A stretch of 46,354 bases of DNA from Gluconobacter thailandicus F149-1 = NBRC 100600 (GTDB lineage: Bacteria; Pseudomonadota; Alphaproteobacteria; Acetobacterales; Acetobacteraceae), in assembly GCF_000964465.1 (NCBI RefSeq), contig NZ_BANH01000042.1:1-46354 (forward strand), given 5' to 3'. Positions 9,705 to 12,702 of the stretch are shown in pieces. Both the position numbers and the translations under genes were made by a program. Under the pieces are notes generated by a model, which saw nothing but the letters and a program-made list of their open reading frames with translations, was not told the DNA's origin and ran no database searches. Position 1 is the stretch's first letter; the number at the start of each line of letters is the position of its first letter.

Positions 9705-10385
9705 ATGTCTTCAACCCTCTCCCCGCGTTCTGCACTGGATGCGGAGGCCGTCAAGGCGGCCTATCGTCGATGGGCCCGCGTTTATGATACTGTTTTCGGC
9801 GGTATCTCTGGCTATGGACGGAAGAGGGCTGTTGAAGCAGTAAACGCCCTTCCTGGCGAGCGTGTGCTCGAAGTAGGCGTCGGAACGGGACTCGCCCTTC
9901 CGTCCTATAATCCGGACAAACGGATTACAGGCATTGATCTGTCTGAAGACATGCTGGATCGCGCACGTCAGCGCGTTCTTCAGGATCGTCTGACGAATGT
10001 GGACGATCTTCTGGAAATGGATGCGGAAGCAACCACCTTCGAAGACGACAGTTTCGATATCGCAGTTGCCATGTTCGTGGCTTCTGTGGTGCCGCATCCG
10101 GACCGGCTTCTGGCCGAACTCAAGCGTGTCGTTCGTCCAGGCGGTCACATTCTCTTCGTAAACCACTTTCTTGCAACCGGCGGCCTTCGCTTGACGGTCG
10201 AACGCGGAATGGCCCGTGCATCCCGTTCCCTGGGCTGGCACCCGGACTTCGCAATCGAGTCCCTCCTGCCGCCAGAAGATCTGAAACGCGCAACTCTGAC
10301 GCCTGTTCCGCCTGCAGGGCTGTTTACACTCGTGACATTGCCGCAATGCGAGAGTAAAAGCGACGCCGCAGCCCTGGTCGCCTGA
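9705..10385 (+). CDS. pmtA: Phosphatidylethanolamine N-methyltransferase (PmtA type)
   Basis: A 226-aa SAM-dependent class I methyltransferase. Motif I is VLEVGVGTGLALPSY, followed by ITGIDLSEDMLDRAR (acidic end of strand 2), and VVRPGGHILFVNHF is the post-II region. The N-terminal RWARVYDTVFG followed by the EVGVGTG form is characteristic of the Rhodobacter/Acetobacter soluble PmtA family, which converts phosphatidylethanolamine to phosphatidylcholine at the inner membrane. AGAAGG precedes the ATG. Acetic acid bacteria are known to make phosphatidylcholine this way. Ubiquinone/menaquinone-type methyltransferases are the main alternative. Confidence 0.82.
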   Translation: MSSTLSPRSALDAEAVKAAYRRWARVYDTVFGGISGYGRKRAVEAVNALPGERVLEVGVGTGLALPSYNPDKRITGIDLSEDMLDRARQRVLQDRLTNVDDLLEMDAEATTFEDDSFDIAVAMFVASVVPHPDRLLAELKRVVRPGGHILFVNHFLATGGLRLTVERGMARASRSLGWHPDFAIESLLPPEDLKRATLTPVPPAGLFTLVTLPQCESKSDAAALVA

Positions 10386-10469: not shown

Positions 10470-11645
10470 ATGACTTATCAGGCCTTCGACTCTATTCCTG
10501 TTCTTTCCAACAGACGGATCGGGACATCATTCATTCTGCTGGCATTGTTTGCCGGTCTTCTGGGTGGGTCGTTGGCTTTGCCACTTCTTCAGACACATCC
10601 GACTGCGGGATTCGCGTTCTGCCACGGTATTCTGATGGCATTTTTCGTCATCTGCCCCGCTGCGCTTGGCGGGTTTGGCCAGTGGCTGCTTCCCGCTGAA
10701 CTGGGTACCGACAGAACGACTCTCCCTGCCTCCAGTCTGGCAGGTTTCTGTTTCCTGTCTTCGGGCGTTGTCCTGCTTCCGGTGCAGCCCATCATGGCTC
10801 TTGCGCTGTGGGTTGTTGGTGTTCTTGCACTCGCAGTCGATATCATCACGACCTTTCTTGAGGGGCGAACCCAGCGCTTTCGCAACCTCTCCCCGCTGGC
10901 CTGGTCCCTGCTTGCCACTGCTGCTGGGGTGACGATTATCGCGCCGGTGCTGGCTGCGGTGGTCACACGGATGATGGTTGATGGAGCACCTGCCAGCGCT
11001 GCAGAGGGTCTTATCGGGATGCTTCATCTTCCCGAGACTGCATTAATGCTGACGCCTGCGCTCGGACTGGTCTGTCATCTTCTGATGCCTCGTCAGGGTG
11101 CGAAAGGCCTCTCTGGCCGGGTCGCACCATATGCCTTTGGCTGCATGGCAGTTCTGGGGCCACTTTGCTGGATGGATGGCCTGTTTGGTGGAATGCCAGC
11201 AGCGTTCCAGAGCATTCTTGTCGCTCTGACGCAGTTCGTTCCGTCTCTCGTGCTTATTACGGCTCTTTGCGGAGATGTCTGGAAGCAACGGCGCGCTCTG
11301 GACGGCACGACGCTCTGGGCCTTGGGAAGTATCGTTCTTTTTTCTGCAGGCTGGATCGCAGAGTTCATGCCTGGACATGCAATCGACCATACGGCTGCGG
11401 CATTTGGTGGCGTGATGGCTCTTTGTGGCGGTTTCTACGCCTGGATGATTCGTCTTCTGCCAGATCATATTCCTGCCCCGCTCAGTCGGATGCATGCGGG
11501 CCTGACGTTTGTTGGCGCCCTTTGCTCCCTGACGCCGGTTGTGAGGCCGGTGGGAGAAGGTTTGATGGGCCTCAGCCTGCTAACCTTTGGTCTGCTGGGC
11601 CTTTTCCTGATCAGGGAGACCGGGCGTGCTCGGGTCAGAGCATGA
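10470..11645 (+). CDS. COX1-like membrane protein lacking the heme a3/CuB ligands
   Basis: About 391 aa with roughly ten or more transmembrane helices. It aligns clearly with cytochrome c oxidase subunit I: FCHGILMAFFVICPAALGGF matches the helix II region with the low-spin heme His (H52 here), and DIITTFLEGR, PLAWSLL and APVLA match helices V-VI. By my alignment from memory, the CuB His of HPEVY is Leu187 (LPETA), the CuB His pair of WAHHM is Asp-Gly (WMDGL, 234-238), and of the helix X HFH only the last His (H307) remains. The protein cannot therefore be a normal oxidase, but could bind one low-spin heme. It is about 140 aa shorter than usual. A TTG at 10446 is an alternative start. The stop overlaps ctaB (ATGA). 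Confidence 0.78.
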   Translation: MTYQAFDSIPVLSNRRIGTSFILLALFAGLLGGSLALPLLQTHPTAGFAFCHGILMAFFVICPAALGGFGQWLLPAELGTDRTTLPASSLAGFCFLSSGVVLLPVQPIMALALWVVGVLALAVDIITTFLEGRTQRFRNLSPLAWSLLATAAGVTIIAPVLAAVVTRMMVDGAPASAAEGLIGMLHLPETALMLTPALGLVCHLLMPRQGAKGLSGRVAPYAFGCMAVLGPLCWMDGLFGGMPAAFQSILVALTQFVPSLVLITALCGDVWKQRRALDGTTLWALGSIVLFSAGWIAEFMPGHAIDHTAAAFGGVMALCGGFYAWMIRLLPDHIPAPLSRMHAGLTFVGALCSLTPVVRPVGEGLMGLSLLTFGLLGLFLIRETGRARVRA

Positions 11646-12589
11646 GCGAAACGACTCCTTTAGCCCCGTCGGGGCTTTTTTCCGTTCTGGGCGCTGACGG
11701 TGATTCTTCTCTCAAGGATTGGGTCGCCCTGCTAAAGCCCCGCGTCATTTCGCTGGTGGTCTTTACGGGAGCCGCAGGTATGGCCGTTGCCCCCCGATGG
11801 CCTTCCGTGCCTATCGGGATTATTACCATCCTGTGCATCTGTATCGGGGCAGGGGCCGCCGGTGCGATCAACATGTGGTATGACCGCGACATTGACGCCG
11901 TCATGAAGCGGACCAATGTTCGCCCTATTCCGGATGGCCGGATGCCCGCTGATAGCGCGTTGATCTATGGTGTGGTGCTGTCAGTTCTATCAGTTCTGGT
12001 GCTCTGGCTGGCAACGAATGCTCTTGCTGCGGGCATTCTGGCGTTCTCGATCTTCTTTTACAGCGTGATCTATACGATGTGGCTCAAGCGGAGCACGCCT
12101 CAGAATATCGTTATTGGTGGCGCTGCGGGTGCATTCCCTCCAATGATTGGCTGGGCCGCGACGATGAACTCCATGGCTGTATTGCCTGTCGCCATGTTTG
12201 CCATTGTGTTTCTCTGGACGCCGCCACACTTCTGGTCCCTGTCGCTATATGCCTGCAAGGATTACGACAAGGCCGGTATTCCCATGCTGCCAGTCGTCAA
12301 GGGTGCACGGCATACGCGCTGGCAGATCCTGCTTTACACGTTCATTCTGACGGCCGTCTCGCTGGTTCCGTCTTTCGTGCATGAGTGTGGGCTGTTTTAC
12401 ACCGTCACGACCAGTCTGCTCGATCTTGGGTTTATTCTTTGCGCGGTCCGTGTGCTGATGGATCAGCAGGACGCTCAGGGCGTTAGCCTTACAAAAGATA
12501 AGCCAGCACGTTTCGCATTTCGCTACTCGCTGGCGTATCTGTTTTTCCTGTTCTGTGGCCTGTTGGTGGATCGGGTACTGCTGTCATGA
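11642..12589 (+). CDS. ctaB: Protoheme IX farnesyltransferase (heme O synthase)
   Basis: A 315-aa UbiA-superfamily prenyltransferase with about nine membrane helices. It adds a farnesyl group to heme B to make heme O for heme-copper oxidases. The first Asp-rich motif [15 protein letters not shown] and the region [23 protein letters not shown] are diagnostic for CtaB/CyoE. The ATG at 11642 overlaps the upstream stop (ATGA), and the same pattern couples it to the next small gene. In a relative without a functional aa3 oxidase, its product would serve a cytochrome bo3 ubiquinol oxidase encoded elsewhere; that is inference. Confidence 0.95.
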   Translation: [315 protein letters not shown]

Positions 12590-12702
12590 AAACAACAACC
12601 GATCTTACCGCAAAACGGCGTCAGAGCCGGATCGTGGGGATTGCAGGAGGGGTGATTACCCTCGCTGCAATCTTCTATGTCATTACTTTGATCCGCTTTT
12701 AA
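12586..12702 (+). CDS. CoxF-like 38-aa membrane peptide
   Basis: A short gene that starts inside the ctaB stop (ATGA at 12586). It encodes a basic N-terminus (LTAKRRQSRIVG) followed by one membrane helix ending YVITLIRF. In alphaproteobacterial aa3-oxidase operons the gene right after ctaB is coxF, a small protein of the form RRxx-hydrophobic-FYVITIxK, and this matches in position, size and pattern. No ctaG or coxC follows; the next gene is on the other strand. It may be a remnant or a retained assembly helper. There is no strong ribosome-binding site, so expression would depend on coupling. Confidence 0.65.
   Translation: MKTTTDLTAKRRQSRIVGIAGGVITLAAIFYVITLIRF

Follow-up and report, generated by a model that had tools for sequence, protein, structure and literature searches.

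A gene in the window (the whole 46,354-nt stretch of Gluconobacter thailandicus DNA under analysis) encodes a relative of cytochrome c oxidase subunit I (COX1) that keeps the two histidines of the low-spin heme site and has lost every ligand of the oxygen-reduction site. The conservation of this histidine pair strongly backs retention of the site among the sequences compared, and a working low-spin heme site in the protein is very probable. The best explanation overall, to which we give nearly even credence, is that a former COX1 has been kept as a one-heme membrane protein that would handle heme together with CtaB, the heme O synthase encoded by the adjoining gene.

The gene occupies positions 10470 to 11645 of the forward strand. 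Its product, referred to here as COX1L, has 391 aa and 12 predicted transmembrane helices. It matches the Pfam COX1 profile (E 8.6e-19; 68.1 bits against a cut-off of 34.8) and the solved aa3 COX1 chains (E 2e-14), and its predicted model is a 12-helix COX1 fold in which residues 303-305, the loop directly before H307, have low confidence. Thus, by profile and by fold, COX1L belongs with subunit I of the A-type heme-copper oxidases; its score against the NCBIfam equivalog CtaD_CoxA stays below the level of that family (48.9 bits versus 670.75). The frame is open over all 391 codons, and its stop overlaps the start of ctaB in an ATGA. An earlier reading of the sequence only had already described the product as a heme-copper oxidase subunit I homologue and its intact frame as coupled to heme O synthase, and both descriptions are borne out. 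In public records, many of the homologues in Gluconobacter and Acetobacter carry the label cbb3-type cytochrome c oxidase subunit I, which agrees neither with their A-type COX1 descent nor with their residues.

COX1L lies between a methyltransferase gene (9705 to 10385, forward strand), recognized by profile match and locus comparison as the upstream border of the locus, and ctaB (11642 to 12589, forward strand), whose product scores above the NCBIfam cyoE_ctaB cut-off and is the sole ctaB match in this genome (G000). The order methyltransferase-COX1L-ctaB recurs in 75/75 family loci. In these, ctaB starts within COX1L or at most 12 bp beyond it (the most upstream in-frame start being assumed outside the ATGA cases), and is followed, where the available sequence reaches, mostly by Tim44-like, pmbA, M16 and thrC genes. 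All nine canonical loci have COX2 directly upstream of COX1 and ctaB after it; the methyltransferase is found just upstream in 6/9, and in one (L068) the downstream neighbours are those of the COX1L loci. COX2, present in 9/9 canonical loci, has no match in the available stretches of the 75 COX1L family loci. Because COX1L and canonical COX1 share the methyltransferase/ctaB setting, COX1L is the positional orthologue of a real cytochrome c oxidase subunit I, with COX2 gone. In a 64-row tree from which near-copies had been dropped, the family is set apart by a branch that has 100/100 support, a result which, with long branches and a narrow canonical set, is consistent with a single origin.

The residues of the heme site were assigned by alignment to the nine canonical COX1 proteins, which come from the same bacterial family. 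The two low-spin ligands are H52 in helix II (codon 10623 to 10625, forward strand) and H307 at the start of helix X (codon 11388 to 11390, forward strand); we take them to be the counterparts of H102 and H421 in R. sphaeroides COX1. In the protein of the window the positions of the CuB ligands are occupied by L187, D236 and G237, the cross-linked tyrosine is replaced by A191 and the heme a3 histidine by I305, and nothing is left of the two propionate arginines or of the Mg-site pair, H411 and the residue next to it. The pattern is general. When 76 members were aligned with the nine canonical proteins, the H52 and H307 columns held His in 76/76; the three CuB columns contained, among other residues, L/G/V, D/H/K and G/D/S, respectively; the tyrosine column contained A/S/T/G and that of the heme a3 histidine G/A/D, again among others. 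Where canonical COX1 has its Mg site and its propionate arginines, 74-75 of the 76 members show gaps. Only four columns are invariant in these members, H52 and H307 being joined by W145 (codon 10902 to 10904, forward strand) and by W234 (codon 11169 to 11171, forward strand), the tryptophan of the former WAHH motif. Mean retention of the 314 columns invariant in the nine canonical COX1s is 25% in the COX1L family, and these four alone are fully kept; if all columns are taken as equally likely, the probability that both low-spin ligands fall among the four is about 1.2e-4.

Genus g31 (Acetobacter), which had four members in that alignment, was covered further by searching 49 genomes. All 42 intact genes added afterwards keep H52, W145, W234 and H307. 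In most of them the glycine after H52 is replaced by Pro, Ala, Ser or Val, and H342, a His in 9/9 canonical COX1s, is Gln in 26 and His in 16. Changes were then counted on a tree of 118 intact family members and the nine canonical proteins, with a total length of about 50 substitutions per site. H52 and H307, His in 118/118, show 0 changes each, as against a median of 23 over the 232 canonical-invariant, well-filled columns, and W145 and W234 are likewise invariant on the tree. The oxygen-site ligand columns H284, Y288, H333, H334 and H419 underwent 33, 18, 17, 34 and 27 changes, respectively, and out of 12 canonical-invariant His columns only the low-spin pair shows none. Some of the 118 members are near-copies of others; duplicate loci L099-L102 were excluded from the alignments, and the incomplete copy of G009, which lies at the end of a contig and keeps the equivalent of H52, was not counted. 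The gene of G295 (locus L192), the sole broken COX1L frame among the loci retrieved, is split over different frames into three pieces, in an assembly that is 86% complete, and was left out of all counts. Among public family proteins, both histidines are found in 78/80, including 20/20 named Acetobacter; the two others are P0076 (340 aa, its second half unrelated) and P0091, a 258-aa fragment. Altogether, these counts uphold what the sequence-only reading had claimed of this site: that both low-spin histidines are kept, that the CuB histidines, the cross-linked tyrosine and the heme a3 histidine are replaced, and that exactly one cofactor site is left. From this conservation we infer that COX1L probably binds heme.

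The third member of the cassette is a mini-gene that overlaps the end of ctaB in another ATGA (12586 to 12702, forward strand) and encodes 38 aa with one predicted transmembrane helix after an Arg-rich stretch. Mini-gene frames found behind ctaB specify 30-69 aa with one hydrophobic helix, usually preceded by an Arg-rich stretch. An automatic rule detected one in 83/84 loci, the nine canonical loci being among the carriers; applied behind seven other genes of the same loci, the rule responded in 18/440 cases. Inspection by eye added L097, missed by the rule, and G056, and found none in G001. Thus, the mini-gene is present in 85/85 loci with COX1 or COX1L and absent at the one locus (in G001) that has neither. 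No Pfam or NCBIfam match above cut-off was obtained in the members with scores, nor a significant PDB match for the one member tried. The family matched most often, weakly, is Pfam Coa3_cc (3/27 members, best E 0.017). The mini-gene product resembles Coa3/MITRAC12 in having one helix after a basic stretch and in being encoded within a COX1 operon; it differs in that its Coa3_cc scores, 12.7 and 11.8 bits in two of nine members scanned, lie below the cut-off of 27 bits, the window copy being unmatched.

The distribution of COX1L was followed in 249 genomes of the bacterial family, 74 of which were searched closely. COX1L is present in 55 of these (54 by search, plus G056, whose divergent copy has both histidines), and all 55 carry ctaB and a CyoB-sized oxidase frame (662-711 aa). 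CtaG_Cox11 was matched in 0/55 COX1L genomes versus 7/10 canonical genomes. The family profile gave no match in 11/249 genomes (G029, G066, G070, G116, G210, G031, G002, G034, G050, G076 and G198); G031, by profile search only, has CtaG and three other COX1-family matches. Six reduced genomes that have no real ctaB also have no COX1L: in G029, G066, G070, G116 and G210, ctaB matches are missing or reach only 23-27% and a CyoB-like frame is absent by Pfam search, and the sixth, G305, was assessed by the family profile alone. Within g31, ctaB and COX1L (one of them broken) occur together in 47/49 genomes, and the remaining two, G210 and G305, are without both and give no match to the family profile. 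Three of the reduced genomes (G029, G066 and G116) contain a COX1-family protein of another kind in an open frame of 785-833 aa. Such co-loss cannot separate ctaB from the bo3 oxidase as the partner of COX1L.

A different arrangement is found in G001, a 100% complete genome in which ctaB is the next gene after the methyltransferase and Tim44 the next after ctaB (locus L145). The genome has cleanly lost COX1L along with the mini-gene and retains ctaB and two heme-copper oxidases. CtaB can therefore do without COX1L and the mini-gene in this lineage, and their joint loss, a single event, ties the two to each other. G001 represents a natural deletion testing the need for COX1L. Rates of change were also compared over 48 taxa. 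COX1L and ctaB covary with a partial r of 0.33, a value reached by 0/500 permutations, and the comparison genes gave 0.26 for Tim44 (1/500), 0.25 for gshB (0/500) and -0.37 for M16. Beyond background, the covariation with ctaB is weak and lends no clear support to a link with CtaB. COX1L evolves much faster than ctaB, which is odd for proteins held together by a tight interface over the whole surface.

As to the identity of the heme, 27/55 COX1L genomes, including that of the window, have no heme A synthase (CtaA). The site cannot need heme A there, and heme A is thus ruled out as a required cofactor of COX1L; heme B and heme O remain as candidates. Canonical R52, in helix I, presumably contacts the heme a formyl. 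Its column (L40 in the window) holds R, Q, E or H in 26/27 loci from genomes that have CtaA (G056 not counted) and in 4/27 from genomes without it, a post hoc observation on a gap-prone column that counts as one contrast only, since the lineages without CtaA group as a single clade in the COX1L tree. A longer COX1L is found at locus L059 (G071), in an open frame of 526 aa that retains part of the stretches deleted elsewhere together with the R52 residue, and is without any oxygen-site ligand; possibly, it represents a transitional form.

How such a protein may have arisen can be pictured as follows. Ancestors of the acetic acid bacteria, respiring with a bo3 ubiquinol oxidase, would have lost the oxygen chemistry of COX1, which became COX1L. 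Helices II and X would still present the two low-spin histidines; the Mg-site and propionate-arginine loops being gone, the heme would be less caged and uncapped on its propionate side. Produced together with CtaB and with the one-helix mini-protein, COX1L would most likely accept heme B or heme O, or buffer it, on behalf of CtaB and the bo3 oxidase, rather like a COX1 assembly intermediate halted after its first heme, in a natural and stable version. Given that COX1L has a fixed place next to ctaB and disappears together with ctaB and bo3 in the reduced genomes, a heme acceptor or buffer acting with CtaB is the most economical interpretation. Operon and co-loss evidence favour heme handling with CtaB, G001 being the exception: this lineage, by keeping ctaB and two oxidases without COX1L, speaks against it. 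Electron carrier, heme carrier and sensor are each possible roles for COX1L. For a heme-handling role linked to CtaB, the gene data suggest a chance somewhat below even. The narrower version, in which COX1L is the dedicated heme-transfer partner of heme O synthase and, with a Coa3-like helper, brings heme to CtaB or takes it away and delivers it onward to the bo3 (or ba3) oxidase, is more tentative still. Contact with CtaB and hand-over of heme are what we infer from the arrangement and joint loss of these genes.

Several other accounts of COX1L must be weighed against heme handling, and the nature of the selection acting on the gene bears on the simplest of them. In 18/18 within-genus pairs the dN/dS of COX1L is 0.060-0.198 (rough ratios, several dS values being near or above 1); the same pairs gave 0.008-0.096 for ctaB and 0-0.040 for the methyltransferase. 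COX1L is therefore constrained, less so than its neighbours, and the sequences indicate purifying selection. Matsutani et al. (2014) reportedly described the deranged COX1-like protein, or ctaD, of acetic acid bacteria and, in their abstract, attributed the loss of its function to the mutations that it had accumulated. That COX1L is such a decaying, pseudogene-like ctaD would agree with the loss of every oxygen-site residue, with fast divergence (median pairwise distance 3.8 versus 1.4 for ctaB), with the one broken copy in the 86%-complete assembly of G295 and with the public protein P0076, which looks frameshifted. However, the frame is open in 26/26 genomes of the genus, dN/dS is 0.06-0.20 where a value near 1 had been named beforehand as the mark of a relic, and both ligands, whose variation had likewise been named as a sign of decay, are kept in 118/118 intact members. 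On a third such sign, a pocket in which the two histidines are not axial to one heme, the 12-helix COX1 fold of the model bears indirectly. Decay is thereby refuted as a general account and is exceedingly improbable; the earlier view that the gene is no random relic stands. Alternatively, the two histidines could be kept for structure or for another ligand rather than for heme. Two tryptophans are equally invariant, so that fold constraint alone can freeze residues, and the propionate arginines are lost; yet the only unchanged histidines among the 12 canonical-invariant His columns are precisely the low-spin pair, and the COX1 fold is kept. We consider this explanation highly unlikely.

Low-spin hemes with two histidine ligands are inherently redox-active, and COX1L might serve as a mono-heme membrane electron carrier, or it might sense oxygen or redox state through its heme, without taking part directly in heme O synthesis. 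Its evolution faster than, and apart from, ctaB would suit such a role, as would the persistence of ctaB without COX1L in G001. Against this, the locus no longer encodes COX2, the electron donor side, no partner oxidoreductase was observed adjoining COX1L, and in six reduced genomes COX1L is lost with ctaB; we find a carrier or sensor doubtful. The fixed position beside ctaB and the tight coupling to it would also be explained if COX1L were a heme-free structural stabiliser, kept solely as CtaB's membrane partner. This has been proposed in print by Degli Esposti et al. (2023; PMC10715153), who suggest that the deranged COX1 of Acetobacter stabilises CtaB. A scaffold, however, has no need to preserve two heme histidines without a single change across about 50 substitutions per site, with H342 drifting meanwhile, and G001 keeps ctaB without COX1L. 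Moreover, the deranged cytochrome b of the same order, for which a passage of that paper proposes a structural role in its complex, has lost heme ligands. A purely structural role for COX1L is unlikely, and heme handling with CtaB remains the reading that we prefer.

COX1L belongs to a gene family already known as the deranged COX1 or ctaD of acetic acid bacteria: it is the same gene, beside ctaB, with the oxygen-site ligands lost. In A. pasteurianus, according to a passage of PMC5158111, ctaD (APT_01775) adjoins ctaB (APT_01774). PMC10715153 describes the deranged ctaD of Acetobacter as being without all metal-binding residues; COX1L keeps the low-spin pair in 118/118 intact members. Since 20/20 named Acetobacter proteins keep both histidines, the printed statement is, by alignment, wrong for the low-spin site, and our findings correct it. 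The passages on deranged ctaD mention neither the mini-gene nor the joint losses nor an exception like that of G001. No report of the kept low-spin site was found in the literature searched, mostly outside subscription papers; as far as searched, the gene is known and its invariant low-spin heme site is new. In mitochondria, according to PMC12224909, it is not clear how Cox10 receives heme B, and the passing of heme to Cox15 has yet to be demonstrated; the COX1L family would make the heme route into and out of heme O synthase testable in Gluconobacter or Acetobacter.

With A-type COX1/CtaD, COX1L shares the COX1 profile, the fold and the two low-spin histidines. It differs in having no CuB, tyrosine or heme a3 ligands, in the deletion of the Mg-site and propionate-arginine stretches, in the absence of COX2 beside it and of a Cox11-type CtaG from its genomes (0/55), and in size (about 390-480 aa in nearly all members, compared to about 540 aa). 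A parallel is the heme a-only COX1 assembly intermediate described in a passage of PMC9145763: like it, COX1L would have only the low-spin heme and stand beside heme-synthesis enzymes. COX1L retains just the site that is filled first, and all that is inserted later is lost. That intermediate is a transient stage of the normal enzyme, beyond which COX1L cannot proceed, and the likeness is one of analogy, not of membership. In conclusion, a respiratory enzyme that has been studied at length may, as COX1L suggests, persist as its low-spin half alone.
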